A stretch of DNA of 59,414 bases from Stentor roeselii (Eukaryota > Ciliophora > Heterotrichea > Heterotrichida > Stentoridae): positions 1 to 59,414 of the forward strand of contig RSEH01000279.1 of NCBI GenBank assembly GCA_006503475.1, written 5' to 3'. Position 1 is the stretch's first letter, and the number at the start of each line of letters is the position of its first letter. Positions 30,778 to 55,700 of the stretch are shown in pieces. The notes below the pieces were generated by a model, which did not search any database, was not told where the DNA came from, and saw nothing but the letters and a program-made list of their open reading frames with translations. The translations under genes and the position numbers were made by a program.

Positions 30778-31803
30778 TTAGTTAATAAAAATCAAAATAG
30801 TCTTAGCAAAAAGCATAAAAACTCCAAGAACCGGGAACAAAACCAAAGAAGCCACAAAGACCAGAGTACAAAAAGCCACCGCCGCTAAAAAAATAAAAAA
30901 ACTAATCCCAAAAACCAAATACTTGATAAAATTTTTACCTTTCACCGCACGAAAGACTTCAACAGTGATAAAACTTGAAAAAAGCAGCAAAATCACAGGT
31001 AAAACTCCAGGCATCAACACCGGCGACAGTAAAATCGCGAAAAAAAGTCCAACATTGAAACATTTTCTAAATTTTTTTCGAAATTTTTCTTGCTCGTCAA
31101 GATAAACAGAAAGCGTCATTGCCAGAGGGATAAAAAACAAGAGAGTCAAAGGAAAAAGTAAGAAAATCACACTTAACACCCAGTAAAAAGAGTCTTTTTT
31201 AGATTTCAAGAAACATCTTCGAATGTCGTGAATCGCCAGGTCTTGTCCGCAGAGCCAACAGAAGCGAAGTCCGCATTTTGAACAAGAAACTTCAGGACAA
31301 CCACGATTTTTCTCGATTATCACGAAACAACGAGGACAAGGCTTCAGGTGACGGCTTTTTAGTGAGGAGAGAGAAGAACAACTCCCTTTGTGGAAGGCTT
31401 CGCTGCAGATAAAACAAAATTTAAAGTTGCATTTGTTGCAGGTTAATTCGTTGGATATAATTTTTTTACTGCTGCCTTTGCAACCTGCTTTAGGACACCA
31501 TCGGAAGAAAGGGTCTTGCTCGCTTTTTTTGTTTGATTTGAATTGGAGATATTTTGGCAGAAGGTCAGGTAAAAGGAGTGAGATTAGGTCTAGATCTAAC
31601 TCGAGTGAACAGTCTGATGATGGACATTTTAGGTTTAGCACCTCACCTTCTGTGATTTTTAATGAAATATAAGTAGTTGTACATGATTTGCAAAACAGAT
31701 GAAGACACGTTGGAATTTCAATATCAGATGGATTTTCTTCACAAATTGAACAGAGAGTTCCTTTTACTAGCTGGTACTCTTTTGTTGAGTCTAATACAGA
31801 CAT
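30778..31803 (-). CDS. Membrane-anchored RBR (RING-IBR-RING2) E3 ubiquitin ligase
   Basis: 341 residues from ATG 31803. RING1 spans 18-65 (CSIC, CLHLFCKSC, CPSSDC). The IBR is about 100-142 (WCPKAGCKG, CNKCNFKFCFIC, H-x-G-x-C). RING2 is 156-186 (CPRCFVIIEKNRGC, CSKCGLRFCWLCG), with Cys169 at the thioester position used by RBR ligases. Three hydrophobic blocks follow (about 205-235, 245-280, 290-338), so the ligase is anchored by its C terminus, like RNF19/RNF144-type enzymes, in the ER or another membrane. RBR enzymes take ubiquitin from an E2 on RING1, load it on Cys169 and pass it to the substrate. Targets unknown. Confidence 0.9.
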   Translation of the reverse strand: MSVLDSTKEYQLVKGTLCSICEENPSDIEIPTCLHLFCKSCTTTYISLKITEGEVLNLKCPSSDCSLELDLDLISLLLPDLLPKYLQFKSNKKSEQDPFFRWCPKAGCKGSSKKIISNELTCNKCNFKFCFICSEAFHKGSCSSLSSLKSRHLKPCPRCFVIIEKNRGCPEVSCSKCGLRFCWLCGQDLAIHDIRRCFLKSKKDSFYWVLSVIFLLFPLTLLFFIPLAMTLSVYLDEQEKFRKKFRKCFNVGLFFAILLSPVLMPGVLPVILLLFSSFITVEVFRAVKGKNFIKYLVFGISFFIFLAAVAFCTLVFVASLVLFPVLGVFMLFAKTILIFIN

Positions 31804-32378: not shown

Positions 32379-35300
32379 TTAATCATTATTTTCCGCACTA
32401 TACCTCGTAACAATATAATTTTGTCTCCTATCAATCGACTCACAATAAAACCGATTCCTACTTCTAACCCAAATCACAAGTTGTTCAAAAATTCCTAAAA
32501 CCCATCCAAAAACCGCAAGAATTCCCGAAGCAGTTCCCAGTACCGTTCCAAAGAAAACAATCAACTCTTGCCTGATCCTTCTTTCAGTAACCAAAGCAGT
32601 ATCACTGACTTCAACCCTAACAATAACATGCAAATAAGAAGCACTCGACAAGTTCTCAACATTGACCTGACTTCCACTTTGCGATGTTTTTTTTTCCGAT
32701 AAATGAAATCCAGTCTGTTTATTTTTCCATCTTCTTGTTTGAGACCTGAAGAAAGAAGGAGTCGCCCAAAAGTAAAACTGAGTCGGTTCAGCTCCGATAA
32801 AGACAGAGTCGTTCAAGGCGGAGACTGAAGCAGTTACAGCGCTTTCTTCATTTGGAACTGAAGAACTTGAAGAAATTCTTGCTTCGATGCTGGATGAGAA
32901 ACTGCGAGTTTCGGTTAAAGATATGGAAACTTCACCTCCTTGAAAAATTTCTCCGTCGTTGCAGGTTATGAGTAAATGACAGTTGTTTTGAAGAAGTTCA
33001 CATGAAATTTCGAGATTTTCACAGGAAATATGGAGAAATAAGACTTTTGTTGTGTTTAAACATTTTGAATTTTTACTGCATTCGCCTCGGTATGAATAAA
33101 AAATCAGGGAAATGGAAAGTTCTTGAGAGTTAAATGAAGAGACTTCTGACTCAAGGATTGCTAAAGGGACTAAACCTTTTATTTCTTCGATGTTGCCTTT
33201 AATTAAAGTGAAAACTGAGGAAGATGTTAACAGTAGTGTCGCGATGATAAATAAAAAACTGAAAAAAGCTCCAGTTTTATTCTTTTTCTGTAAAATATAA
33301 GAATTCAACTCACAGTAATGGTCACTTTCAAAGATGTCAAAGTTTCTAAGTTTACTCCTCAATTTTTTCCATATAAAAAAAAGAAAAAAAACCAAAATAA
33401 TAGGAACACTGACTAAAACTCGATAAATAATAACCTCTTCATCCATTTCAGGACTTTCATACAAATTCGGCTGCGCTGATTTCAAAGAAAAATCCGAATT
33501 TTCCAATCCTTTCTCTTTAAAACCAGAACAAAACTTTTCTCTTTTACAATTCTCACATTTTTTTGCATTATTTTCAGAATTTCCACAAGGAAGACACTGA
33601 TAAACCGAGCTCGACGCGTTGAATTCACTGAAGCTTCCCATTTCACAATCTTCACATTTCTGTCCAGGTCTTTCAGAAAAAGTGCCTTCAGGACAAGCCT
33701 GGCATCGGCCATTGAAATTTCGGGTGCCTGAAGAGCAAAGTGCTTTACAACCCGCTTTTTCACAGACCTGTTCAATACTTATCTGAAGGAAAAGACCAGA
33801 AGCAGTCTTTGGGAACATTAAACTTCCTAAACTACTTCCGCCTCCAAAGCAAAAGAGTGACTTGTTGAAGTAAACGAAAGAAGCAGCGTAGATGTTTAAG
33901 TCGAAGTTTAATATTTTTGTTGATTTTCCTGAGGTCAAAATGGTGATTTTTTGTTTTGTTGTCTCTTGCCAGGCCTGACCCCCAATGCTTATTAAGGTGT
34001 TGTCCAGAAATACTTGGCAGGATTGGGCTGAGTCGAAATGAGTTAAATGGTGGGAATGGAAAATGTGCCAGGTATTTGAGGAAAGGTTAAATATGTCGAT
34101 GTTCGGAGATGGCTGCTGGTTTTCGTCTGAACCTAATGATATGAAAAATTGGAATGAGTCCATCCAGCAGTGTGGGTAGGATAGTCTTCGTGGACCTGTG
34201 CTGAGAAGTTTGTATTTACTGAGCCCAATATCAAATTCCCACAACTCATTAGACATACCAGAGTCAGTTTTTCCTCCAAAAATCATTACTTTCAAATCTT
34301 TCACGACCAAGCAACTCCCTTTAGCAGGTCTCGGTCCTTGCGTAGACCCTGGTACGATCAGTGTCCATAATCCAGTCAAAGTATTAAAAACAAACAAATC
34401 ATTCCTAAGTTCTTCAAAGTCCTGTCCTCCCCATACAAAAATCGAGTACCCTTCAGCCGCTGAAGCATGCAAGTACCTCGGAGAAGGTACCTGCCCCTTG
34501 GGTAAAACTGGACTCCACTCAAAAGAATCCAAGTTAAACCTCCACAAATCATTAAAAATCAAATCAGAATCCATTCCTCCAAATAAATAAATAAAAGAAT
34601 TCACAACTGTCATCGAATGCATTGTCCGAGCTTTAGGCATCAAGTAATGTTTACTTATTGTGACAGATTCATAAGTCTTCAGGTTTATTTTATCGATTGC
34701 GTTTGTGTAAGTTTGTAAAAAATGACTGAAACCTCCGAAATTTAAAAGAAATTCTGAAATTTTCACGGAGGAAAAACTGTCGATTGCAAGTTTAGATGGA
34801 ATTTTTTGATTTTCCCAGGATTTGTTGTGGGAGGTGAGGTTTATTATCAGAATATCTGTTAAGGCTTCGTTGTACTGGTAGTCCCAGCCGGAAAACACGA
34901 AAAAACGGTCAAGATGGATGAAGCTTTGAGCTAGTCCTCGACATTTAAAAGAACTTTTTCTGTCTGATATGACTGCCCATTTTAGGGATGTTAAAGAGTA
35001 GCTGTATAGAAAAGGTAAACAAGGACTGGACCCTGAAGGGATTCCAGTTGCTTGAAGTATCTGACCGTTGTAGTACTCAATAACAGGACTACCACTTGCT
35101 TGAGGTCTTTCCCCATTCGGTGGAAGTAACTCCCAAGTTAAGCAGGTAACATTCAACCTTTTTACTTTTACCTGTACAACTCGTTATTTAATTTGTCAAA
35201 TAAAAACCCTCCCTGAACCACAAAGTACAAAAATCCATTCTCAGTATAAGAAGTGAATCCAAAAGCTGATCGAGAAGCTGGAGTTGAAATAGTTTCAACC

Positions 35301-36382: not shown

Positions 36383-39300
36383 CTACTGAATATTCAAAGC
36401 ACAAAACCTTCTAATATTGTTCAACAAATTAGCTTCAGGAAACAACTTCTTTAAACTAGTAGGCTGTCGAGTAACAGGATCAAACCCATTTTTCCTAATA
36501 AACTCTTCAATATCTTGTCTCTCATACGTGATTCCCGAGGTTCTACAAGTGACAGGGTCTGTCATAATCTTCTTAGTAAGAGCGCAAAGGAACTCAACAG
36601 GTACCCCAGGCTGAGCCTCATGAAAGCTGATGCCCTGAAGCAATTCAGAAACAGGCTTCATTGCAAAAGACTGAGTCCATTCTTTCGCAATAAAATTATA
36701 TCTTTCCCTTGAAGACCTAAACAAACTAGCAATATTAGTATCAAGCGAGTCACTTCCTTCAGGGTTCATGAAAAGTCCATAAATACTTTGCATTAATTTC
36801 AAAATAGTGATTTCAGGTGCATAGTCGCTATTCAGCACAGAAATGCAAATTCTTCCTGAAGAGTTTACATTTATATGATAAATTTGTGTCAAAAAACGAA
36901 TTTCAGGAGGTTTTGAAGGATATTCCTCAGGAAAACTGATGTAAAAGTGAAAATTTCCACCTTCATAAGGTGTTCCAAGTGGTCCAGTGAGAATTCCATT
37001 CCAGAACTGAATATCTGCTTCACAAGGGTAAATCTGAATATCTGGATGAGGATTTTTGTGGATTAAAGCCATTTCTCGGTTAATTCTTTTAAACCTTAAA
37101 GACCCTGTCGAAGTCGCGAATTTCGGTTTTGCCAGTTCCATGGTCATTAAACTAGAAGCAATATTTGAAACTTTCAGTTTTACCTGCTCAGGTCTTTTAA
37201 AAGGTGGAGGAATCGACGTGAATTCTTTGAAAGTTGTTGAAGCGAGTTCGGAATTCGATACAGTTTCAACAACTTCTGAAGGGTATCGAAAAAATACTGA
37301 AATAAAAGCATCGGACTCGAAGATCTTGTAACCTTGCTCGACATTTTCACACCAGAAGGCGAATCCACCTGAACAAAGAGAAAGATTCTTTAAAATAATG
37401 CATTTTTCTCCAAGGTTTATACAGTCTAAAATGATTTCATTTGAAATTAGTCCTTCTAAGACTGCCTTTTCAGAAAAAACTGAAGAGTTGTCTTCACCGT
37501 CGCTGAAACAGATTATTCGTGATTTGATGTTTGTGTACTTTTTCTTTATTAGCTTTTGGTCACGCGTCGCTGAAGCGATCGCGTCGAATATTGAAGTCCC
37601 TCCGTTGCTTGTGACTGGTTCTAGGTACTCGCAAAATTTGAAAGCGCTTTCAGTGAACTTTGAGACTTTTTTTACTGATGTGTCGAATGTTGTTAAGGAG
37701 ATTATTTGGGGAAGGTTGTAACCAAGGGATCGGTTTATGAATGAGTTGAAAAGGTCTTTTGCTACTGTCATTCGAGATTTCTCTGTACTTTGGTAGGTGC
37801 TTGCCATGGACCCGCTGGTATCCAAAAGTATCGAAATTGCTTCTTCAGGAATTCTAGAATAATTTTCTTCTTCAACCTGTAACTTTTTAGAACTAATATT
37901 CTCTTCCTGGTTAAAAACAGAAGCCAAGCTATCAGGATCAACAGAAGTAACCAAGCCAGTAAGTACATTTTTAATCGAGATATCATTCGAGCATTCCATC
38001 AACCCAAGATTAACAACAACTTTTCTATCCAAATTAAAAGTCAAAGTCTTTCTCTTCGAGTTAAGTTTCAAATCCAGGTAACTTGTAATCTGTGTAACAA
38101 ATCTTTTCGCTTTAATAACTTCAAAATCATTAAAACCCGAAATTTTCGGTGCATGTTTAAACAAAGCACCAACATCAAAAGTACTATCAAAGCAAGTTTT
38201 CATGATAACCAGTTCATTTACCTCAACACCCTCAGTCCTCTTAATGATCTTCATCAACTCCAAGTCCACCCTAAGGTTATCAATAGACCCTTGAAGCTTA
38301 GGAATGCTGCCTTGAGCCTTTTTCAGTTCTTCTATTCGAGAAAGGTCGTAAATTTCGAAGGTGTTGTTAATCAAAGGGACTATCACCGGTTTTCGCACTT
38401 TAAAAGGATTTGCAATGATTTTTGTTTCGAAGTTTTCATTCTCGCTTTTTGTGAAACTTTTCACATCAGCCAATTCGAAAAGAAATGAAAAAAAATCAAG
38501 AGTGTGTTCGAAAAAAGCCTCAAATGGACAGTTTAAACGAAGGGTGTTGTTGAGGTTGAAGAACAGGAAGAATGAACCTTCGTTTAAAGCGATTAGTTCT
38601 GATTCAGTTTTAGAATTTTGCTTTAGTGAAAGATGAAAAGAGTACAGGAAGGGGTTGAATGGAAGAATGTATCGAGTTACTGCTAAAAGTCGCTTTCTTA
38701 CCTCGATTGTAGTGTGGTCGGGAAGACAGTAAAGGAAATTGTGGAAAAGTCGTAGACCTTCGAGGGATTGGGTTGATATCGGGTTGTAATGGTTCAGGCT
38801 TAGATTTGGGTTGTTGTTGAATAACTTGTAATGGATTTTTAATGGAGTTTGGGTTTCTATTGATATTGATGAGCTTGGACTTCTTATGGCTAAACCGATC
38901 AGGTCTTTCAGTTCTTTTTCTTTGTCGAAGGTCGGGTTGATCTTCAATTCAATCGATTCTTTCGTGTCAACATCAACAGCAGAAATAATCAAGTTCCTTT
39001 CATATCGATGTTTTAAAATCAACTGATTATCATAAAGATTATTTGAAACTATCACAAAAACTCTTTCTTCATCTGACAAAACATCAGAAACCCTTAAAAA
39101 CTGTGAAGTGTAGAAACTTGGTGACAAAGGTTGTCCATCAAAAGAGTAAAAAAAACAAACAAATTTCAAATTATCAAGTTTTCTTTCCTTTATGATAATA
39201 TCTGAGACTTCATTTAAGTAAAGGTCTTTTGGAACTTGCACTTTTAAAGACTGTTGCCTGTCAAATGAGGAAATGATGAATTCGATTGAAAAGGAATTTT

Positions 39301-39592
39301 CAGGCCTTTGACTTGCCTGGACCTCTGGAATAGTCTCGTTGATGACTGAAGAATTTCTTGATTCTGATGAATAGAGAACTGTTAATTCGAGCTTTTGGTA
39401 ACCGGCTGACTTGTACCCTTCAAATGCGTCGGAGTCAATTTCAGAGTTATCTTCATCTAGAATACGGATATTCGAATTCACTAGGTTGAATTTCACTGAT
39501 ATCTGAATTTTTAGTTGATGAAAAGTTGAGGAGAAGATCGTTTTAGATGAGTCCTGGTAGTGAACTATGCAGCGAATTTGAGTGACACTCAT
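36383..39592 (-). CDS. vWA-UBC(E2)-U-box fusion, E2 and E3 ubiquitin modules in one chain
   Basis: 1,069 residues from ATG 39592; an in-frame TTG 30 bp earlier is not used. Order: an N-terminal ubiquitin-like/PB1-like beta region (1-80) and a second such region (100-190), weakly supported; unknown 200-570; vWA 584-765 with a full MIDAS (DTSGS 591-595, Thr666, Asp698); a linker with RRFxx-type basic residues; an E2 ubiquitin-conjugating core 830-975 with TGPLGTPYEGG, FPEEYPSKPPEIRF, HIN in place of HPN (906-908), the active Cys916 in SSGRICISVL and DYAPEITILK; then a U-box 1000-1065 (LCALTKKIMTDPVTCRTSGITYE, DPVTRQP). Expected to carry ubiquitin on Cys916 and use its own U-box as E3. vWA may bind substrate with a metal. 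I know of no named family with this order. Confidence 0.9.
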   Translation of the reverse strand: MSVTQIRCIVHYQDSSKTIFSSTFHQLKIQISVKFNLVNSNIRILDEDNSEIDSDAFEGYKSAGYQKLELTVLYSSESRNSSVINETIPEVQASQRPENSFSIEFIISSFDRQQSLKVQVPKDLYLNEVSDIIIKERKLDNLKFVCFFYSFDGQPLSPSFYTSQFLRVSDVLSDEERVFVIVSNNLYDNQLILKHRYERNLIISAVDVDTKESIELKINPTFDKEKELKDLIGLAIRSPSSSISIETQTPLKIHYKLFNNNPNLSLNHYNPISTQSLEGLRLFHNFLYCLPDHTTIEVRKRLLAVTRYILPFNPFLYSFHLSLKQNSKTESELIALNEGSFFLFFNLNNTLRLNCPFEAFFEHTLDFFSFLFELADVKSFTKSENENFETKIIANPFKVRKPVIVPLINNTFEIYDLSRIEELKKAQGSIPKLQGSIDNLRVDLELMKIIKRTEGVEVNELVIMKTCFDSTFDVGALFKHAPKISGFNDFEVIKAKRFVTQITSYLDLKLNSKRKTLTFNLDRKVVVNLGLMECSNDISIKNVLTGLVTSVDPDSLASVFNQEENISSKKLQVEEENYSRIPEEAISILLDTSGSMASTYQSTEKSRMTVAKDLFNSFINRSLGYNLPQIISLTTFDTSVKKVSKFTESAFKFCEYLEPVTSNGGTSIFDAIASATRDQKLIKKKYTNIKSRIICFSDGEDNSSVFSEKAVLEGLISNEIILDCINLGEKCIILKNLSLCSGGFAFWCENVEQGYKIFESDAFISVFFRYPSEVVETVSNSELASTTFKEFTSIPPPFKRPEQVKLKVSNIASSLMTMELAKPKFATSTGSLRFKRINREMALIHKNPHPDIQIYPCEADIQFWNGILTGPLGTPYEGGNFHFYISFPEEYPSKPPEIRFLTQIYHINVNSSGRICISVLNSDYAPEITILKLMQSIYGLFMNPEGSDSLDTNIASLFRSSRERYNFIAKEWTQSFAMKPVSELLQGISFHEAQPGVPVEFLCALTKKIMTDPVTCRTSGITYERQDIEEFIRKNGFDPVTRQPTSLKKLFPEANLLNNIRRFCALNIQ

Positions 39593-43700: not shown

Positions 43701-44761
43701 CTTCTAAACCCATTTGGAGGGCAAGAAGAGCTGGAATTGATTCAACAGTTTTTTGGATTAACGTTGGACCTAATGCGGTTTTGTTTGTTTTTTATTTGGC
43801 ATTGGTTCCTTTCGCTTTGATTGGCACGAAGATTCCTTATTTAAGTGAAAAATGTTATAATTATCTCAGAAAGTATAGATACGCTTTTTTCATCAGGTTC
43901 TGGATTCAAGTCTTTCTTGATTTCGGGATTTTCGCTTTGATTCAGATTAATTCAGTGAGTTTTATGCAGAGTATTCAAGAAGAGCAACAAGGGTACTTCA
44001 ACTTTATCACGGCTTGTGTGTTAATTGTAGGGTTTATTTAGATGATTGTTGGAATTTCACCTGTGACTGTCTTGATACTTTTAACAAGACATCGAAAAAA
44101 CTTAGAAGATTTTAAAGTTAAGGAAAAATATGGAAGTCTTTTTGAGGAGTTTAAAAATGATAAAGGATTTTTCAGTTGTCTTTATTATTTCTTTTTCTTG
44201 ATTAGAAGGTTTCAGTATATGATGACTCAGGTATTTTTAGGCTTTACACCTAGAACTCAACTTGGAATGAACATCGCGTTTTCTTTTATTCATTTCTTTT
44301 ATCTAGCTTATTATCGCCCTTTTAAGAGTAAACTGGTACTTTTCACTGATTTTATTGGAGAAATTTGCATTATTTTCTTGTTTATTGAATCAGTTTGCTT
44401 TTTACCTGAAGTTAATCTGGAGTCTTCAACTATTGATCAGGTTTTTATTGTAGTTGTTATTATTGCTATCAGTTTTCAGACCTTGGCTAATATGATTGGA
44501 TTAGGCATGAAAATTGTAGAAATTTATAAAAAGTGTCAAAATTACAGAGCACAGAAAATTATTAAAAGGTCGAATAAGGTACACCCTGAGAAACATACTC
44601 ATGTTGGGGAATCACTTGAAGTTAACTTTGAAAATCAAGGTCATGGGACGTTTAAATGGTCGAGAAAAGTACATCCTGAGAAAAATACTTATGGTGAAAA
44701 CTCGTTTGAAATGAATCCTGGGAATACTGCTCCTCAAGAAACTATTAAAGATGAAGAGTAA
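40775..44761 (+). CDS. LamG-like, Cys-rich, seven-pass surface protein (spliced)
   Basis: Exons 40775-44026 and 44042-44761 give 1,323 residues. A signal peptide (MLIFSLLIILGHAG) is followed by a concanavalin/LamG-like domain (20-200, with LVEYRFGYNFG, WNGQIYFHG, WYFLMTDE) and about a dozen Cys-rich repeats of the form C-x2-C-x-TC-x6-C-x-C-x-x-G-F/Y-Y (to about 43160). After a 100-residue beta region come seven hydrophobic segments, the fourth interrupted by the intron (FNFITACVLI joined to MIVGISPVTVLILL). The cytosolic tail holds a duplicated KVHPEKHTHVGES/KVHPEKNTYGENS motif. This multi-pass end resembles ciliate surface proteins with a receptor-like layout. Function unknown. Confidence 0.85.
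44027..44041 (+). other. 15-nt spliceosomal intron
   Basis: GTAGGGTTTATTTAG, phase 0 with in-frame TAG; A at position 10. Its removal fuses two same-frame open stretches and completes a membrane helix. Confidence 0.93.
44563..44710 (+). repeat. Duplicated tail motif (KVHPEK)
   Basis: Two copies, near 44577 and 44668, of a segment encoding KVHPEK(H/N)T(H/Y)-x-GE followed by N/S-rich residues. Basic-acidic tail of the seven-pass protein; presumably a small in-gene duplication. Confidence 0.6.
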
Positions 44762-45100: not shown

Positions 45101-48100
45101 TTATTTATTCCTACTAGTAGAATCTAATCCAGTCATCATTTTTTCCTCATTTTCATCTTTATCATTTTCTTTACCATCTTCATTTCTTTTTTTTTTTTTG
45201 CCATCCTTCAACCTTTTCTCCTCTTTATTTTCTTTATTTTCCTCATTTTCTTCATTTTCTTCATTTTCTTCATTTTCTTCATTTTCCTCATTTTCTTCAT
45301 TTTCTTCATTTTCATTTTTCAAATTTTTAAGTCTCTGAAGTTCTTCATCATAAAACGAAAAAACTTCCTTCCCTCTAAACTCAACCTTATAAAACAAAAA
45401 CTCTAAAATTTTCATAAAAAAAGCAGCAGCAAAAAAGATTCCACTAAGAGCTCCAACAGCGATTCCAATAAATCCAATAGTATCATTTTTAAGCTGTCTA
45501 GTAGTATAAAACCCAGTTTCACTTAAAATGAACTCAATGCGAATCCGAAGGCCAACATTCAAATTGATGCTATTAATATCAGTTTTACTTCCTTCCTCAG
45601 GAGTTAAAAAGTTAGAAACCCTGTAACCATGCATATCTTTTTCTTTATCTAAAGAAAAATCCTGAAAGTAAACCGGAATAAACTCAAATCGAAAAACCGA
45701 AGAATCTTTACCTTTAAAAACATTTCCATCATTTAAAGTCAATGAGTTAACCGCTCGACTGGTCAAGTTACGATAAGCAGCGTTGGTTTCAATTGAAACA
45801 GTGAAATCTGAAGTATAGCAAGAGAGGCAAGTTGAGTAAATTTCAAGGTAGTCCCCAGAAGTAATAAGAGAATTTTTAGTGACTAGAAAATTTACATGGC
45901 AGGAGTCCTCAAAGTCCCCTGGAAATAATTTTTTTTCACTTAAGATCACTGTTAAATTTTCGGAATTTTTAATGTTAAAAATACTTGAATTGCACTGATC
46001 AGCTCTCAAGGAACTCGACCCAAGAAATACTCTGAAAGTCTGACCATTGAATTTATTATCTTTAATCAGTGTACCTGTTGTCACTAAAGTAATTGAATCG
46101 ATTTCATTGTACTTAAAGTAGGTAACTATGTAATACAAAAGACCTCCTAATAAGAAAATAAATGAAACTCCTGTGAAAAAACCTCCAATTTGAGAGGGAT
46201 TCGAAGGGATTTCAGAAAAGGACTCGGTTTTTAAAGTCGGTCTTTCCAGATGTCTTTTCTTAAAAAAGTCATTTACTGCAAGTTTTACTCGAAAGGGCAA
46301 AGAAAACGACCAGGTCAATGAAAAAATTAATAAAAGGCCGCCGATGCCGCAGCCTAGGCCGATGATAGTTGAAATATTGTTTTGGACTCTGAGTAGGTCA
46401 GGCTGGGTCTCAGGGATGGTTATTGAGGATAAATCATCTTCGAATGAACCTACGTAGCAAGTTGATTTGTTGCATTCTAAACAACTTCCTTCTGACATGT
46501 AAAAACCGTATTCGCATGGAAGACATTCAATGATGTGAGTAGCTCCTGTATAAGAAGTTGATGATCCTTTTGGACATGCGATGCAGGAAGTATTGTAAAT
46601 ACTTTTATATGATCCTTTTTCGCATTTATTACAATATGATTTTGATTCATCAATTATATAACCAGGACCACAATTATCAGAACTTTTATCGAAAAGGTCA
46701 TAAATAAAATAAGAATAAGAAGACTGAAGATCGAAACCATCTCCATGACCTTCTCGCCCTGAGTAAAGTAACAAGTATCCATTAAACATTGCAAAGCCCA
46801 TCGAGTGGATCCCATTCAAATCCTTTGAAAACTCTTTACTGATAATAGTTTTCTCTTTTAGATCTAAGATCAACATATCACTAAAGCTTCTTTGGAAATT
46901 TATTTGTCCTCCTATAATATAAACTTTAGAGTTTATTACAGTGTAAGCGAAGTTAAACCTTCCTTGGACCTGGTCATCGAACTGGACGACATTAAAAGTC
47001 AATTTCGAAAAATTACTAACATTTATTTTTCTTACTTCTGAACAAGGATTTCCTGAAATATCTGAAGACCCGAAGAAGGTGTAAATAAATTTTCCTTTTT
47101 CATTAGATTCGAAATGACATCCATGTCTTGATATTCCAGTGAACCTCTTTTCATGTTCTTTGCTTTTAAATTGTCCTTCCTCGAATAAACCTTCTACAAA
47201 GCTGTATCTCCAAATGAAGTTCTTGGTTTTATAGCCGTCTTCACCACCTACGATGTAAAAGTAAGGCATGTCTAGCATAACGCAAGACCCTGCAAAAGGA
47301 GGAGGAGAAGAAGATGAAGGATCAGGAGTGATTTCATTCCAATAATAACCATCATTATTCGAAGTTAACACCCAAAAATCACTGAAGATTTCAAAGTTTT
47401 CATCATATCCTCCTGCGACGAGCATGAGATTTCCTTGACTTGCTGTTGCATGAAGTGTTCTTTTATTTGGGTAAGTTCCACTAGCTTCTATTTTTCGCCA
47501 TTCTTGAAGTTCTTTATTTTCTCCAAATATTGAGTCTATAGGTAGTCTCCAAAGGTCATTGAAAAATTTAGATTTTTGGTTTCCACCAAATAATAATGAT
47601 TGATTTGAAACGACTACAATCGAAGATTTCATTCTGCTAAGTGGATTTTGGTATGAATTAAAATACCCTGGTTTTAATTCTTCAGTACTTTTACGGATAT
47701 TTATGTACATATGTGAATTTGAAAGTCCTGTAGGACTTTTTCCTGAATAGACTATGACATATATATATAAATCTTCTCCAGCTTTTTCAGTTATTACATC
47801 CGAGAATCCGAATTCACTTCTTCCTTCTTCAAATGGTTGCGATAATGGATATATTTTTTTTTCCCATCCAGCTTTGAGATTTTTTAGGTTTAATTTATAA
47901 TAATCTAGTATGAATCCTTGATTATTAATACCTAAAAAGTAATAAAGAATATCATTATAAATCAAACTTCCTCCTTGAGCTGAATCAACAAGGGGATTTT
48001 CAGTTTTATACTCAAACCATTCATTTTTTTCTATTGAGTACTCACAAATATAATTATAAAATCCATAATCATTATCTTTTAAGCTAAAACCTGAAAACAA

Positions 48101-48715
48101 GTACAATTTAGAATCATAATGCTGAAGTTGACAACCAAAAATTCCATTAATCGAGCATTTATTTTTTAAGGATCTTTTCGAGTATATTTTAAAAGTATCA
48201 TTTGAAAATATTTCTATCAAATAAAAGTCAGTATAGTATTCAGTAGAAGACTTCCCGCCAACAATCGCAAAATAAATAGAATTATTCCCTGAATCAAAAG
48301 TAGCAGTCGCGAAATCATATCTCTCTCCAATTTCAGATATTTCGAAAAGACTTTCCCAGTAATCGCCATTTATATCATATCTCCAAAAGTCACCTAAGCT
48401 TCCCTTGGGACCCTCTCCTCCAAACAAATAAAGTGAATTATTGAAAACAACTTTTGAAAGGCCGTATAAGTGTCTTGGACTTGGAGAGGTTTTGCTTTTT
48501 GATGTTAAAGTTTTCTTTATATTTTCATTGTAGTTGTAGTCGATAAAGTAAAAGTTTTCATCGAATTCAGTTTCTGAAATTTTACCAGAAAAGTACCTTA
48601 GATCTTTGTCGATGCTTAGAGAAATGAGCTGGATTCCTGATACTGCTGGAGAGGAAAAATAACCATGATATGAACTTGAAAGGACGCATTTCAAGATAAT
48701 GAGAAAAAGCGCCAT
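45101..48715 (-). CDS. Kelch-propeller, Cys-rich, three-pass membrane protein (tandem paralogue 1)
   Basis: 1,204 residues from ATG 48715. A signal peptide (MALFLIILKCVLSSSYH) is followed by AVSGIQLISLSIDKDLRYFSGK, a mark shared by all three tandem genes. Kelch repeats (SLYLFGGEGPKGSLGDFWRY, KLYLFSGFS, SLLFGGNQKSKFFNDLWRLP) run to about residue 650. An ephrin-receptor-like Cys-rich part (GYIIDESKSYCNKC, CPKGSSTSYTGATH, CLPCEYGFY) follows. Then membrane helix 1 (IIGLGCGIGGLLLIFSLTW), helix 2 (GGFFTGVSFIFLLGGLLYY), an outer domain of about 220 residues, and helix 3 (IGFIGIAVGALSGIFFAAAF). The cytosolic tail ends in a (NEE)n repeat and Lys/Glu. Surface receptor or sensor by inference. Confidence 0.9.
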   Translation of the reverse strand: MALFLIILKCVLSSSYHGYFSSPAVSGIQLISLSIDKDLRYFSGKISETEFDENFYFIDYNYNENIKKTLTSKSKTSPSPRHLYGLSKVVFNNSLYLFGGEGPKGSLGDFWRYDINGDYWESLFEISEIGERYDFATATFDSGNNSIYFAIVGGKSSTEYYTDFYLIEIFSNDTFKIYSKRSLKNKCSINGIFGCQLQHYDSKLYLFSGFSLKDNDYGFYNYICEYSIEKNEWFEYKTENPLVDSAQGGSLIYNDILYYFLGINNQGFILDYYKLNLKNLKAGWEKKIYPLSQPFEEGRSEFGFSDVITEKAGEDLYIYVIVYSGKSPTGLSNSHMYINIRKSTEELKPGYFNSYQNPLSRMKSSIVVVSNQSLLFGGNQKSKFFNDLWRLPIDSIFGENKELQEWRKIEASGTYPNKRTLHATASQGNLMLVAGGYDENFEIFSDFWVLTSNNDGYYWNEITPDPSSSSPPPFAGSCVMLDMPYFYIVGGEDGYKTKNFIWRYSFVEGLFEEGQFKSKEHEKRFTGISRHGCHFESNEKGKFIYTFFGSSDISGNPCSEVRKINVSNFSKLTFNVVQFDDQVQGRFNFAYTVINSKVYIIGGQINFQRSFSDMLILDLKEKTIISKEFSKDLNGIHSMGFAMFNGYLLLYSGREGHGDGFDLQSSYSYFIYDLFDKSSDNCGPGYIIDESKSYCNKCEKGSYKSIYNTSCIACPKGSSTSYTGATHIIECLPCEYGFYMSEGSCLECNKSTCYVGSFEDDLSSITIPETQPDLLRVQNNISTIIGLGCGIGGLLLIFSLTWSFSLPFRVKLAVNDFFKKRHLERPTLKTESFSEIPSNPSQIGGFFTGVSFIFLLGGLLYYIVTYFKYNEIDSITLVTTGTLIKDNKFNGQTFRVFLGSSSLRADQCNSSIFNIKNSENLTVILSEKKLFPGDFEDSCHVNFLVTKNSLITSGDYLEIYSTCLSCYTSDFTVSIETNAAYRNLTSRAVNSLTLNDGNVFKGKDSSVFRFEFIPVYFQDFSLDKEKDMHGYRVSNFLTPEEGSKTDINSINLNVGLRIRIEFILSETGFYTTRQLKNDTIGFIGIAVGALSGIFFAAAFFMKILEFLFYKVEFRGKEVFSFYDEELQRLKNLKNENEENEENEENEENEENEENEENEENKENKEEKRLKDGKKKKRNEDGKENDKDENEEKMMTGLDSTSRNK
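45238..45315 (-). repeat. 9-bp microsatellite coding for Asn-Glu-Glu
   Basis: About eight or nine 9-bp units (sense GAAAATGAA type, with two GAG variants) encoding a run of N-E-E in the cytosolic tail. Acidic, low-complexity, probably length-variable by slippage. Confidence 0.85.
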
Positions 48716-48727
48716 TTATTATAATAT

Positions 48728-48737
48728 TTGTAGACAT
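48728..48737 (-). promoter_or_regulatory. ATGTCTACAA upstream motif (kelch paralogue 1)
   Basis: Sense ATGTCTACAA ends 13 bp before the start codon at 48715; a related CGTCTATAA lies at 48742-48750. The same motif precedes the two sister genes and several other minus-strand genes. Role inferred: core promoter or shared regulatory site. Confidence 0.45.
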
Positions 48738-48982
48738 CTGATTATAGACGATTAGAATATGGAGAGTATGAGAATTGTCTTAGGATAAGATTTTTAGTGA
48801 ATGAAAATAATGATGACTTTGAAGATGATAATTTTTTAAAACAATTCTCATTGCTTTCAAATAAATGATTTATTTTACAGCTGAGAAATGTTTAATCAAC
48901 GAAAAGACTCTTATAAAAAGTAACTCAAATAATTATGAGCTTTTAAGTCTCTTCTCATCAAGTTTCTTAATAATACATTTAA

Positions 48983-51900
48983 TCAATTGAATACAATTGA
49001 ATACCTTGAACTCAAATTGCTTTTAAGATCCTGATTGACTCCTGGGCTATCCAAGTCATCAGGATTTATTTCTCCTTTCTTTTCATCATTTTTTCCTTTC
49101 TTATTATCCTCATTCATCTTCAAAGCCCTATCAACTTCCTCCTTATAATTCGAAATCACTTCTTTCTTCCTATTTTTGATCTTATTATAAAAAAACTCAA
49201 TAATCTTCATAATAGCAGCCAAAGTCCAAATCGCTCCACTGATAGCACTTAAAGTGATTCCAATATACCCTAAAGTATCAATCTTCATAAGCCGAGTGAT
49301 GTAAACTCCACTTTGACTGATCATAAAAACAACCCTAATTTTTAATTCCCTGAATAAAACACTTCTCGCAGGATTCGAAATACTTCCTTTTTTCGGAGAA
49401 GTAGCTTCTGAAACGCGATAACCATAGGAGTCACTTTCTTTAGTCAGTGAAAAATCTTGGAATAAAGCAGGAATTAACTCAAATTGAAAAATGGAAGGAA
49501 CTTCACCTTTAAATACTTCTTGATTTTCAAGAATTATTTCACTGGATTCTCGACTTTTTTCATTGTTGTAGGCTGAGTCGCTTTCTACTGAGACATGAAG
49601 ATAAGATGCGAATGCTGAAGGGCATTCGAAGATCATTTCAATAAAGTCACCTGTTTCAATAATGCTTTTTTTATTGACTTTAAAGAGTTTAGAGAGAGAA
49701 TTGTAGTCATCGTCATAGTCAGATGTGATTTTTTCGTAATAATCAATAATCAACCCAGAGGAACTCTTGTTTGAAAATTTGCAATTTTCAGGTTCTAGGA
49801 TTTTTAAGTCATAAATTTTTAGATTAATTTGAAGTTCTCCATCTTTTGAATCAAATTTTTCAGTTAAAGTGTTTGAAGGGACTAATGTTATACTTTCTGT
49901 AGTGTTTCCTTTGATGTACATGTAGATGAAATAAGTTAATATTGCTAGAAATAGAAATATTACAAAACCTGTGAAAAAACCTCCAATGTAAAAAAATTCT
50001 CGACGAGGCTTTGGAAGAATTTCTGGATTTTTAAGCCTTGGAGGCCTTAAATGATGTTTTCTGAAGAAATCGTTTATCGTGAGTCGAACTCTTAGCTTTA
50101 CAAATAAAAACCAAAAAATCACGAATATTATCAGGCAGCCTCCACATGTAAAGACTAAAATCAATAGAAAAAATGTATTATTTCTTTGTTTTAATAGATT
50201 TGGATGTTTTTCATCATTTTGTATATCATATTTAATTTCACATGTTTCACTATTATTGCAGATTTTGCATTTTGAGGAAACAAGAGATGATTCTGGTAAG
50301 CACTGTGATATGTGAGTCGATCCTTTATCATATGTGAACGTTCCATTAGGACATATTTGGCATTTTTCTTCATATTTGCTTTTATAATAACCACATTCAC
50401 AATCCCAGCATACTTTGTAAGATGCATAGTAATATTCATAATCGCCATAATATCTATTCTCTGAACCTTCAATGCATTTTGGGATCAGACAAGTTTTATT
50501 TGTCAAGGGCATAAAGAATAGCAATTCAGATGAAGGAACATCGATTTGGTTCCCATTATCGCTTGAACCTGAATAAATAATCATCTTTTCTTGAATTGAT
50601 GAGAATGCCATGGAGTGAAGTCCATTTACTTTAATAGTGTTAGAGTATTGGGTTTCTATTTCTGAATATGAAAATGTATCCTCTTCTAGGTCTATTGAAA
50701 TGAAATCTAATAAACTTTCTTTGAAAAATCTCTGGCCTCCAAATATATATATTTTTGAACGGTAAGCAGTATAGGCGAAATCAGATCTACCTATCATAAT
50801 TGAGTCATTTGTAATAACAGTTATATTAATATTGTTAAAATCTGTGATGTTTAATTTCAGCAAATTATTTGAAGGTATATTTGACTTATCTAGCGACCCG
50901 AATATAGTATAAATAAAAATTTCATCATCAATTTTATCCAAGAAACACCCATGCCGAGATAATCCTTTTTGTTTACTTTTTATCTTTCCTTCTTCAAAAG
51001 TATTATCAGAAAAATCATATCTCCAGATATCAAAGAGTAACTTTTCAGAGGTTTCTCCGCCAATAATATAAAAGTAAGGAAGATCTAAAATTGTACATGA
51101 ATTGATTCTAGCCAATGGTGGCTTTTGACTAGAAGATGGATGAATTTCTATCCATTTTTTGCTACTCCCTGAAGCATCAAGCAACCAATAATCTGGAAGA
51201 ATTGTTAGGTCTTCACTATATCCTCCACTAATCAAAAGAAATGAACCTTGAGAAGCTGCAGAATGTGAAAATCTTTTAGGTGGAAGCTCGCCATAGATTA
51301 TTTCATTTTTCCAATAATGATCTAATAAATAATCATAAAGAGATTCACAATTTTTACATTTATAAGACCAAAGATCATTAAAACATTCACCATTTTGAAC
51401 TCCTCCAAATAAATAGAGCTGGTTTGAAACATGAGAAAGAGTTGACTTGAATCTAAAACCAGGATTAGATTTTGAATCTGAACAATAAATGTAAATATAT
51501 TTATAATAATTATCATAAACGGCATATCCAAGTGAATTCAAATATCCATCGTTACTCATCCCACCATAAAAAAGTAAAATTTTATATGAATATTCATCAA
51601 ATTTATTTAAAATGAGAGTTCCAAATTGAGATCTAGAGCAATCAGTTTCAATATATCCTCTATAATATTTAACCCATCCTGCATTCAAGTCAGTTAAATT
51701 TAAACTATACATTTCTTCATTAAATTTTTCATCTTCTCTGCCGAAAAAATAATATAATTTATTTTTAAATATAAAACTTCCACCCTGGGCTGAATTAATT
51801 AATTTTTGTTGTAAGTCATACATAATCCAATAATTTTTTTCCATATCAAAAACACAAAGATCTTGAAAATATTCATGTTTGCTATTTCGGGTGATTGAAC

Positions 51901-52522
51901 CTGAAAAAAGATATAAAGCATTTTCAAAATATTGAAGCTGAGCACCTGAAATAGATTCAATGCTGCAATTATGATAAGGTGATGGCATTTTAACAATATT
52001 TATTGATTCATTTTTGTAAGTCTCAATAAAATAAAAATCTGAAGTGAGTTCATAATAGTTTTTACTACCTCCAAGTATTGCGAAGATTGAATGATCATCT
52101 TTTTGTATTGTTGTGAAAGCATAGTCAAACCTTGCAGGGATCGAGCATTCAACTTGTTCCCATTTGTTATCATTAATGTAATATTTCCACAAATCTCCTA
52201 AAGCACCATTAGAGCCTTGTCCTCCAAAAATGTAAGCTAAAGATTCACTGTGCTTGGATACTCCATACAAACTTCTTGGACTTGGTAATTTTTCACTTTT
52301 TCTTAGAGAAACATAATAAAAATATTTTGTTTGATTATATTTAAGAGAATACTCTCTCAATGATGATTCAAATGTCAATGAAGAGGTTTTTCCTGAAAAA
52401 CTAAGAAAGTTTTCATTTTCGCTCAATGGGATTAAATTTATGCCAGATACGCCCTTTGGTTTTATGCCTGTGAAAAAATATTCCCCAGAAGCTAAAACTA
52501 TAAAAAAAACCAAATGTATCAT
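48983..52522 (-). CDS. Kelch-propeller, Cys-rich, three-pass membrane protein (tandem paralogue 2)
   Basis: 1,179 residues from ATG 52522. Signal peptide MIHLVFFIVLASG, then GVSGINLIPLSENENFLSFSGK matching paralogue 1. Kelch repeats (AYIFGGQGSNGALGDLWKY, LYLFGGVQNGECFNDLWSY, IYIFGGQRFFKE) are followed by a Cys-rich part that has lost some Cys pairs (the block corresponding to CEYGFYMSEGSC is shortened to a SSLVSSKCKICNNS stretch), membrane helices 1 and 2 (LLILVFTCGGCLIIFVIFW; GGFFTGFVIFLFLAILTYF), an outer domain with ITLVPSNTL, and helix 3 (LGYIGITLSAISGAIWTLAA). The tail is charged and carries no NEE repeat. Codons are more AT-rich than in paralogue 1 and the flanking genes. Same inferred role as its neighbours. 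Confidence 0.9.
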   Translation of the reverse strand: MIHLVFFIVLASGEYFFTGIKPKGVSGINLIPLSENENFLSFSGKTSSLTFESSLREYSLKYNQTKYFYYVSLRKSEKLPSPRSLYGVSKHSESLAYIFGGQGSNGALGDLWKYYINDNKWEQVECSIPARFDYAFTTIQKDDHSIFAILGGSKNYYELTSDFYFIETYKNESINIVKMPSPYHNCSIESISGAQLQYFENALYLFSGSITRNSKHEYFQDLCVFDMEKNYWIMYDLQQKLINSAQGGSFIFKNKLYYFFGREDEKFNEEMYSLNLTDLNAGWVKYYRGYIETDCSRSQFGTLILNKFDEYSYKILLFYGGMSNDGYLNSLGYAVYDNYYKYIYIYCSDSKSNPGFRFKSTLSHVSNQLYLFGGVQNGECFNDLWSYKCKNCESLYDYLLDHYWKNEIIYGELPPKRFSHSAASQGSFLLISGGYSEDLTILPDYWLLDASGSSKKWIEIHPSSSQKPPLARINSCTILDLPYFYIIGGETSEKLLFDIWRYDFSDNTFEEGKIKSKQKGLSRHGCFLDKIDDEIFIYTIFGSLDKSNIPSNNLLKLNITDFNNINITVITNDSIMIGRSDFAYTAYRSKIYIFGGQRFFKESLLDFISIDLEEDTFSYSEIETQYSNTIKVNGLHSMAFSSIQEKMIIYSGSSDNGNQIDVPSSELLFFMPLTNKTCLIPKCIEGSENRYYGDYEYYYASYKVCWDCECGYYKSKYEEKCQICPNGTFTYDKGSTHISQCLPESSLVSSKCKICNNSETCEIKYDIQNDEKHPNLLKQRNNTFFLLILVFTCGGCLIIFVIFWFLFVKLRVRLTINDFFRKHHLRPPRLKNPEILPKPRREFFYIGGFFTGFVIFLFLAILTYFIYMYIKGNTTESITLVPSNTLTEKFDSKDGELQINLKIYDLKILEPENCKFSNKSSSGLIIDYYEKITSDYDDDYNSLSKLFKVNKKSIIETGDFIEMIFECPSAFASYLHVSVESDSAYNNEKSRESSEIILENQEVFKGEVPSIFQFELIPALFQDFSLTKESDSYGYRVSEATSPKKGSISNPARSVLFRELKIRVVFMISQSGVYITRLMKIDTLGYIGITLSAISGAIWTLAAIMKIIEFFYNKIKNRKKEVISNYKEEVDRALKMNEDNKKGKNDEKKGEINPDDLDSPGVNQDLKSNLSSRYSIVFN

Positions 52523-52556
52523 ATTATTGTAATTTGTTCAATCATCGGATAAAAAT

Positions 52557-52566
52557 TTGTTGACAT
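52557..52566 (-). promoter_or_regulatory. ATGTCAACAA upstream motif variant (kelch paralogue 2)
   Basis: Sense ATGTCAACAA lies 34 bp upstream of ATG 52522. Further copies of the core TCTACAA occur at 52571-52577 and 52602-52610, and the reverse orientation at 52624-52632. The cluster of half-sites is denser than at the sister genes. Confidence 0.4.
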
Positions 52567-52783
52567 CTTGTTGTAGAAATCGGTAACTTCTTCCATATTT
52601 GATTGTAGACTAATAAAATAAGCTGTCTACAACACCATTCCCCTGAAAAATATATAAAAAACAACATAGTTCAACTCAAAAAAATTAATCTGCTAAAATT
52701 TTAATCAATCTTTCCTTTCTATCAATCAATAAAAAATCAAGACTTTCTAAATCAATTCAAATCTAAACTCTAAATATCTAATC

Positions 52784-55700
52784 CTAAACCCTATTCACAG
52801 TGACTGCACGATTATCCTTCAAATAATCATCCCCTTCTTTTTCGCCCTGGCCAATCGAACTAGGTCCATCAATACTTTCTTTTCCCTTCTTCGAATCCAT
52901 AAGTCTCGCAAGTTCCACTTCATACTTCGAGACAACATCTTTCCCTTTAAACCGATAAGCATAAAGCAAATGTTCAAAAATCTTCATCAAAATAGAAATA
53001 ACCCCAAAGGTCCCATTGATAGCTCCTAAAGCGATTCCAACATAGCCAATAGTATCAACTTTTAAATTTTTTCTAATGAAAAGTCCAGTCAAGCTCAAAG
53101 TAAACTCGACCTTCACCTTAAAGCCTGAATAAAATCGAAGACTTTGAATATCAGAAGTGCTTCCTGCCTCAGCAGGTATTTTTTTAGAAACTCTGTAACC
53201 GTAGATGAGATTTGATTCACTTGACAATAAGTCTTCGTAGACGGTCGGAATCAAATCAAAGAAAAATGTTGAAGCTTCATTTCCTTTGAATACTTTGTTG
53301 TCTCTTAGAACTAGACTACTTGAATCTTTACTTTCTTCATTGTTGTACCCTGTAGAAGTCGTTGCTGAAATGAAAATATCGGAAGTGAAGGCAGACTCAC
53401 AAGTAAAGTCGATTTCGATATAGTCTCCTGTTGATATTGCTGATGATTTATAGATTTCGAATGTTTTTGTGAAAAAGGAGTTTTTGGTTCTTTCTATATT
53501 ATCAGTTTCAGGATTAACTGTTAGATTTTTAGAGGATGATACAGAGAGTTCACAGAATTCTGAATCGAAGAGTAAGGATTTTGATTGAAATTTTAAGGAG
53601 ACGTGTATGTTATTTAATGAAAAATCATCAATGAAGGTATTTGATGTCACAAGTGAAGCAGTTTCAATAGTGTTTCCTTTTATGTATATGTAGATATAAT
53701 AGATCATTATCGCTGAAGTCAAAAGGAGTAGTCCTCCTGTGAAGAAACCACCTACATAAGAAACTTTTGCCTTTTCTATATTTTCTTGAGCATTTTTTAG
53801 TCTTGGTTCCTCCAAATGATGGCTTCTCAATAAGTCATTCACTGATAAAAATATTCTTATTCTCCTAAATACAAGCCAGATTAAAATAAATGAAACGATT
53901 GAACAACCAGTAACAACTGCAAGAATGAATATGAAATTATAATTACTCTTGGGCTTCAGTAATGAAGGCTCTTGTTTTTCAATAGTATAATCAAGAGATG
54001 TTGGTTCTATTGTACCTATAAAACATTCTTTATTTTCAAGGCAAGGGACACATTCCGAATCTTTCATAAAATATCCATATTCACAAGGTAAGCACTGCAG
54101 ACTATCAAAAGATCCTATAGATAAGGTATAATATGAATTAGGGCATGGTACGCAATTAAAGTTATTTCTATCCCTAAAATAATTCTTTTTGCATGCTGAA
54201 CAATAAAGTTTAACATATTCTTGAGTTCTTTCATCAGGACTTAAATCTAAATATGAGCCTTCAGTGCAATAAATATTTTCATCGCTATCATAAGATAAGT
54301 TTAGAAGAATTATATTATAAGATGGAGGCATTTCAATTAGTTCTCCATTGTCTATCGCACCTGAGTAAATTATAAGTTTATCATAAATTGATGTAAATGC
54401 CATAGAGTGTATTCCAGGTTCATTAAAATATTCAATATTATAACCATATTTTTTTTCAGATTTCGAACTATTGAGATCAATTATCAACAAATACCTTTCA
54501 AAGACTTCAAAGAATCTCTGACCTCCAAATATTAATAATTTTGAATCAATGACACTAAAAGCAAAATTTGATCTTCCTTCTTTTTCATGCTCATTATAGG
54601 TATAATCCAATATAATAGAGGAAAAGTTTGTGATTAGTATTCCAAAAATTAAATCAGATGGAGTATTTATAATATCGACTGATCCAAATATGACATAAAT
54701 GATCTTTTCTTCATCTCTTTCTTCTAAAAAGCAACCATGTCTAGAGATTCCAAAATTTAAGTCAATATTTCCTTTTGTAAAAGTATCATCGGCAAAGTTG
54801 TATCTCCAGATTTCTTTAGAATGCCCAGTAGCTGATTCTCCTCCTATTAAGTAGAAGTAAGGCATGTCTAAGATAAGACAAGAATGAACCAAAGGTAAAG
54901 GTTTTCGTGAATCTTCTTTCGGTTTTATTTCTTTCCATTCATATGTTTCATTGAAGTTTGTAAGTAGCCAATAGTCTGATAAAATTTCTAATTTCTCATC
55001 AAATCCACCTGCTATTATCATGAAAAAACCTTGAGATGCTGCTGAATGACTAAATCTTGGTTTTGGGTATTCTCCATTAGGATTTAATTCTGTCCATATA
55101 TTATTTATATCAGAAATGTCGTAACTCCAAACATCGTTCAAAATATTCTTTTTATTGATACCTCCAAAAATCAATACTTTATTTGAAACATGAGACATTG
55201 TTGAGCCAATTCTAGGTCCAGGATTTTTCAGCTCATCCATACAAAAGATTTTTACTGAATCTTCGGGATTATTTATAAAAACGTATCCTAATGAATTTAA
55301 ATATTCTCCATCCTTAGTCCCTCCAAAAAAAAGTGTCAGAGATGTATTATCATCATAGTTGTTTGTTATGGAATAAGCAAATTGACTTCTTTCGCAAGTA
55401 TGATTATCGTTTATATTATTTGGAGTACTCCAGCCTTCATGAATATTATATATATTTATTCTATAAATATCAGAGAGTGTACCATACTCATTTTCTCCAA
55501 AATAATAGTAAATGTAACTTGAGTTCAAATCATAAAAACTAGCCCCATGCTCTGATCTAAAAAGTTTATTTTTTAGTTCAAAATTTGTCCATTCTTCATT
55601 TTCATGATCGTAAACACATATATCAGTATAGAAGTCATTCTCACTATTCATTCCAGAAAAAAGGTACATATAATTATAATCACAATAAGCCTGAGACCCT

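Follow-up and report, generated by a model that had tools for sequence, protein, structure and literature searches.

A vWA domain, a ubiquitin-conjugating core and a U-box joined in one reading frame of a Stentor genome and in its paralogs

Domain organisation of the fused gene and its family

We analysed the whole of contig RSEH01000279.1 of the ciliate Stentor roeselii (59,414 nucleotides, hereafter the window), which is contig C207 of the genome searched here (44.4 Mb, 522 contigs). On its minus strand, at 36383..39592, lies a reading frame of 1069 amino acids, running from an ATG at 39592 to a TAG at 36383, in which a von Willebrand factor A (vWA) domain, a ubiquitin-conjugating (E2) core and a U-box follow each other. 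The frame contains no internal stop under the standard code, and the nearest in-frame stop upstream of the ATG, a TAA, is 111 nt away. Pfam returns VWA_2, UQ_con and U-box in this order, each above its curated cut-off; all parts of the gene described below are on the minus strand. The vWA core (aa 588-700; 37493..37831; VWA_2, E = 5.1e-12, 46.8 bits, cut-off 27) sits in a conserved block of about aa 581-775, and the genome-wide VWA_2 scan matches at the same place. From the sequence and the paralog alignment, its DTSGS motif (aa 591-595; 37808..37822) combines with Thr666 and Asp698 into the DxSxS, Thr and Asp pattern that we take to be the metal ligands of a metal ion-dependent adhesion site (MIDAS). 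The E2 core (aa 836-972; 36677..37087; UQ_con, E = 1.6e-36, 125.4 bits, cut-off 27) has UBE2D as its top match in the PDB (E = 4.4e-37), and its active-site residue Cys916 (codon 36845..36847) aligns with UBE2D Cys85. A linker with a conserved E-[LI]-L motif (aa 979-1002; 36587..36658) leads to Cys1003 of the C-terminal U-box (aa 997-1065; 36398..36604; Pfam U-box, E = 3e-15, 56.6 bits, cut-off 21.4), for which the top PDB match is CHIP (E = 4.3e-9). No TPR (at E up to 1), BIR or PARP domain was matched by Pfam in the window frame. The combination reported in the first-pass annotation, namely a vWA with a complete MIDAS, an E2 with Cys916 and a U-box in one unbroken frame, is thus borne out by Pfam and by alignment.

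A protein search of the same genome revealed four further loci, each on another contig. Three are intact single frames: C112 (56% identity to the window protein over query positions 5-1066; 1073 codons from stop to stop), C507 (47%, query 2-1063; 1049 codons) and C152 (32%, query 121-1060; 1113 codons). VWA_2, UQ_con and U-box are matched in the same order in all four intact copies, the window copy included, with the U-box above its cut-off in each in the genome scan. Nine residues (D591, S593, S595, T666, D698, H906, N908, C916 and D948) are identical throughout, the five MIDAS ligands Asp591-x-Ser593-x-Ser595, Thr666 and Asp698 among them. The linker is 24 residues long in three of the copies but measures 19 in C152, and its E-[LI]-L motif is conserved. 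Both the order and the nine residues recur in intact paralogs on three other contigs, so the fusion goes beyond chance; it is a real family and not an assembly accident. The remaining locus, C124, consists of two pieces (65% and 64% identity) that start at residue 457 and lack the N-terminal part, and its E2 is broken up by a stop and by 75 inserted nt that two CAAGG repeats flank; we treat it as a truncated, interrupted relic. The insert (L004 2758-2842) is AT-rich (29% GC), and with CAAGG direct repeats on both sides it looks like either DNA inserted with duplication of a 5-base target or an eliminated sequence that was retained here.

The family accounts for five of at least 20 U-box matches in the genome and, among E2 matches with E no higher than 0.01, for five of at least 63, of which 58 lie above the cut-off; the counts of such large families are lower bounds. 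One further frame with more than one domain of this kind was seen on C466 (L081, 1027-3822 minus, 932 aa), where two E2 matches, the first with and the second without an active-site Cys as judged by eye, may be an active E2 and, behind it in the same chain, a pseudo-E2. VWA_2 is matched 37 times in the genome, and several of the frames concerned, of about 740 aa, resemble VIT-vWA proteins by eye.

The branching pattern of the E2 domains argues for a single origin of the fusion. In a tree of 29 domains (built from 30 of the 63 E2 matches, minus the broken E2 of C124) the four fused E2s form one group, with a support of 94/86, just below the starred level of the tool (95 and 80), and in 95% of 200 bootstrap trees. 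A single origin is therefore well supported for the fused E2s, and one fusion followed by duplications would be the simplest account. We aligned the four intact copies by codon and used the proportions of synonymous (pS) and nonsynonymous (pN) differences, given that synonymous divergence was saturated for most pairs. Between the three closer copies pS over the whole frame is 0.72-0.80, while pN is 0.15-0.23 in the E2, 0.17-0.30 in the vWA and 0.30-0.37 in the U-box, with protein identities of 66-75%, 52-73% and 43-55%, respectively. Because synonymous sites are near saturation while the protein identity of the E2 and vWA parts stays high, the comparison points to long selection on these two parts. 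Pattern searches of two contig collections, both devoid of eukaryote genomes and so uninformative on the spread of the family, returned no relatives: none among 23 matches in viral_contigs and 59 in genome_contigs with the paralog alignment, and none among eight in viral_contigs with the window E2 alone.

The N-terminal half of the protein (about aa 1-575), which lay outside the description of the first-pass annotation, is also common to the intact copies. Used as a query, it gave six matches in the genome, all on the five family loci, and a query with the front part of C152, reaching into the E2, gave 13, namely the five family loci and eight E2 places. These eight are confined to the E2 part of the query, and within this genome the front half is thus seen only at the five family loci. 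We scanned ten segments of three copies with Pfam (three from the window, six from C152 and one from C112). A beta-grasp-like module at aa 1-74 (39371..39592) weakly resembles CIDE-N (segment aa 1-85, E = 0.0072, 16.8 bits, under the cut-off of 23.5). It is followed by a second conserved module (aa 100-184; 39041..39295), delimited in the paralog alignments and ubiquitin-like by eye only, which is matched neither by Pfam nor, up to E = 10, in the PDB. A third module (aa 200-262; 38807..38995) appears ubiquitin-like through its C152 counterpart, which matches the Pfam ubiquitin family at E = 4.7e-4 (20.3 bits, under the cut-off of 25.4) and is weakly matched by two PDB entries (E = 0.47 and 0.81), presumably of ubiquitin-like domains; the corresponding C112 segment gave no ubiquitin match in Pfam. 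Scans of whole copies returned ubiquitin (E = 0.017) and CIDE-N (E = 0.04) in one of the four copies each. Only the two lowest of these values, 0.0072 and 4.7e-4, weigh much, as the same segment scan also yields chance-like matches at E = 0.05-0.13; taken together, they weakly suggest beta-grasp modules of ubiquitin-like type in the front half. Further along, a conserved and probably helical region (aa 275-385; 38438..38770), so judged from alignment and sequence, precedes a segment at aa 386-432 (38297..38437) that reaches a probability of 61.7 against the U-box profile. Its C152 counterpart matches zf-Nse below the cut-off (E = 8.6e-4), and zf-Nse is matched by the true U-box too; the window segment itself has no Pfam match, and its profile finds no U-box in the PDB. 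A degenerate first U-box ahead of the vWA is likely but unproven.

Catalytic residues, contact faces and possible modes of action

The catalytic residues of the E2, Cys916, His906, Asn908 and Asp948, are all present, with H-I-N in place of H-P-N. The first-pass annotation saw in this a replacement that may change catalysis, which gives it too much weight. None of the intact copies has an exact H-P-N (H-I-N in the window, H-L-N in C112 and C507, H-C-N in C152), and His and Asn are kept in all, with I/L/L/C between them; the Pro is also missing from other E2s of the genome that have the Cys in place (HVN in C281, HLN in C92). Human UBE2E enzymes carry H-C-N yet are active, so that a Pro at the middle position does not strictly define an E2. 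In the H-P-N motif the Asn has a bond-forming, the His a structural and the Pro a helping role (PMC9630792). We have therefore dropped H-I-N as a special catalytic change; a mild effect of the Pro replacement is possible.

The U-box of CHIP and UBE2D/UbcH5 form a solved complex, PDB 2OXQ (PMC2396629), whose published contacts we mapped onto the four intact copies, with CHIP numbers assigned via the PDB alignment. In the order window/C112/C507/C152, the E2 contacts K4, R5, P61 and P95 are kept in all copies and K8 is R/R/R/K, and on the U-box side P269 is invariant, I235 is L/L/L/I, H260 is F/Y/F/V and R272 is R/K/K/G. UBE2D and CHIP, the closest solved relatives of the two parts, are thus known partners. 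We propose with moderate confidence that the gene encodes a single-chain E2-U-box ubiquitin ligase with a vWA and a weakly ubiquitin-like adaptor half. In favour stand the three domains above their cut-offs, the nine invariant residues, the signs of long selection, the front half seen only together with E2 and U-box, the kept contacts, the equal linker length of three copies and the man-made fusions described below. What we observe is the domain architecture and its presence in all four intact copies; the biochemical steps, which we infer, would run as follows. The ubiquitin-activating enzyme (E1) would charge the E2 core on Cys916, as the intact catalytic residues suggest. The U-box, placed 24 residues downstream on a conserved and probably helical linker, would dock on the E2 of its own or of a partner chain, docking in cis being plausible from the sequence. 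Once docked, it would bring the E2-ubiquitin conjugate into its closed form, either in cis or within a dimer, and so promote discharge of the ubiquitin. The N-terminal half and the metal-binding vWA might be adaptor or assembly parts that bring the substrate or oligomerise the enzyme, which is the weakest step. Two parts of the first-pass interpretation need to be relaxed at this point. The protein may be less self-contained as a ubiquitin-transfer enzyme than proposed there, given the altered contact faces of the E2 and the U-box, and an E1 is in any case required for ubiquitin loading; and for the vWA, cast there as the part that chooses the substrate, a role in assembly is equally possible.

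Several observations weigh against a single-chain ligase. On the E2 face F62 is S/Y/Y/F, with Ser in the window copy itself, S94 is A/G/S/S and A96 is E/E/E/A. On the U-box face F237 is K/K/H/G, R263 is K/E/Q/T and V264 is N/N/H/T, with E259 (E/S/K/N) and V270 (V/V/F/K) also changed, and the Arg at position 272 is Gly in C152. The S-P-A motif of E2 loop 7 reads A-P-E in the window, G-P-E in C112 and S-P-E in C507, and is retained only in C152. For CHIP this motif is described as necessary but not sufficient, a Ser to Ala change within it blocks productive binding, and the CHIP mutants F237A and R272A fail to work with UbcH5 but still work with Ubc13 (PMC2396629). Judged by these residues, the window E2 and U-box would fall short of a standard CHIP-UbcH5 pair, and the changed contacts could mean that the two do not dock. 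Additionally, the U-box is the least constrained of the three domains (pS 0.49 and pN 0.35 over 77 codons between the window copy and C507), the ubiquitin-like modules and the first U-box all fall under their Pfam cut-offs, and the family also decays, one of its five loci (C124) being broken. An AlphaFold model of the E2-U-box part, built from a single sequence, has a mean predicted local distance difference test score of 34, useless for the geometry of docking in cis.

The same changes can be read in another direction. In each of the three closer copies both faces have shifted from the UBE2D/CHIP norm, as would suit a re-tuned and partly private pair that is less accessible to other E3s and E2s. 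In a stronger form, which we consider rather unlikely, the protein would be an insulated E2-E3 chain, whose faces changed together until they served each other and ceased to serve the remaining E3s and E2s of the cell, giving a private ubiquitin channel addressed by the vWA and the ubiquitin-like front half. The changed faces fit a loss of docking as well, there being one informative split (three copies against one) and no statistical test. A candidate salt bridge between Glu927 and Lys1007, joining E2 position 96 to the position of CHIP F237, was rejected: in the contact table of 2OXQ, F237 contacts R5 and K8 of the E2, while A96 contacts I235, H260, V264, P269 and V270 (PMC2396629).

In an alternative scenario, somewhat unlikely in our estimation, the E2 would be active without using its own U-box, and the U-box would recruit standard E2s for chain elongation. 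Such a protein would resemble BIRC6 and UBE2O, which are hybrids of E2 and ubiquitin ligase (E3). The E2 face speaks for this scenario, through the A-P-E and the Ser at position 62 of the window copy, set against the S-P-A needed by CHIP partners, and through position 96, which is Glu in every intact copy but C152; UBE2S also has Glu at that position and is not known to dock to RINGs in the standard manner. What argues against it is that the U-box contacts F237, R263 and V264 have changed too, which would be unexpected if the U-box still served standard E2s, and that three copies keep a linker of equal length.

It is improbable that the U-box serves just for structure or dimerisation, which would make the protein no more than an E2 joined to a large adaptor. 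The lower identity of the U-box relative to the E2 among the three closer copies (43-55% versus 66-75%) and the missing R272 arginine of C152 would suit this explanation, but the U-box family is matched above its cut-off in four of four intact copies, P269 and a hydrophobic residue at 235 are present in all of them, and position 272 is Arg or Lys in three. Finally, a chance or assembly fusion of adjacent genes, or a dead gene, is barely credible, for although C124 is broken, four intact copies on four contigs share one order and their E2s one well-supported group.

Genomic setting of the fused gene

Three tandem copies of CCCTAACA occur at 220 + 327 places in the genome (overlapping places within one array each counted), while three tandem copies of the reversed octamer, used as a control, occur at none. 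Among the places listed, the plus-strand arrays on C26, C40, C48, C56 and C70 lie within the first 80 bases of their contigs. We take this octamer to be the heterotrich ciliate telomere, and repeats of this type suggest a heterotrich-type ciliate genome. Stentor is a heterotrich that uses the standard code (PMC9505925).

Elsewhere in the window, a candidate RBR-type E3 with RING and IBR domains (30778-31803, minus strand) is located about 4.6 kb from the fused gene, the two being probably chance neighbours. Four large kelch-repeat frames are found on the minus strand at 45101-56299 and 32379-35156, three of them adjoining and 1171-1204 aa long. One kelch gene is broken at 35158-35171 (minus strand) by a 14-nt would-be intron (GTAAAAGTAAAAAG), which is a base short of the 15-16 nt range of Stentor introns (PMC9505925); the interruption may be a base-call slip in an A run. 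On the plus strand, one protein (10743-12581) combines a B-box zinc finger with OHA and OST-HTH/LOTUS domains, and at 44039-44044 two long frames that share one phase, of 1088 and 239 aa, are separated by a single TAG with an ATG immediately after it, possibly an intron end or a site of read-through.

Relation to known ubiquitin enzymes

E2s and RING or U-box E3s are usually separate proteins that meet briefly, and laboratories fuse them to trap or to speed the reaction. CHIP (STUB1) and UBE2D, which among solved structures come closest to the two catalytic parts, are likewise two proteins, whereas the window protein is one chain; CHIP moreover carries N-terminal TPRs (PMC2396629), of which none was matched in the window frame, and CHIP-cognate E2s have the S-P-A that is replaced in three of the four intact ciliate copies. 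An E2 core inside a larger protein, as in the window, is found in Ube2O, UBE2Z and BIRC6 (PMC11354881) and in a fungal PARP with a UBC domain (PMC2964712). The passages that present these proteins mention no U-box, and the BIR domain of BIRC6 and the PARP domain were not matched in the window frame. E2 and E3 do share one chain in two man-made proteins, both with a RING instead of a U-box and without a vWA: the engineered gp78RING-Ube2g2, described as highly processive (PMC10630674), and PDB entry 8v0d, by its molecule name a fusion of UbcH5B with RING3 of MIB1, for which our literature search retrieved no paper.

The first-pass annotation had proposed the protein as a candidate for an undescribed system. 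We found no description of the order vWA-E2-U-box in searches of one open-access library, which covered no eukaryote protein database, and proteins of this kind may well sit unnamed in ciliate annotations. The terms vwa and ciliate have no occurrence in the main text of a survey of ubiquitin domain architectures (PMC4327156), nor in a paper that covers yeast (PMC2691004). The claim, however, goes too far in one respect, since the pairing of U-box and vWA is known in protists. Mb_UBOXa of Monosiga, with relatives in Naegleria, Trimastix and Spironucleus, is, like the window protein, a protist protein with both domains, and is called ancient and absent from animals (Marin 2010, PMC3087547). Compared by description, it differs from the window protein in that the passages devoted to it mention no E2.

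A natural fusion kept through several duplications would offer a ready system with fixed pairing, in which one could ask what is gained by joining the two: processivity, a private pairing, or escape from the competition of E1 and E3 for the E2 face. Its interest to ubiquitin specialists would lie mainly in the possibility that the pair is private. The window gene is a real, well conserved domain fusion that extends two known kinds of protein, the U-box ligase and the multidomain E2, and it would supply the vWA and U-box proteins of protists, which are known but have had little study, with a catalytic half.

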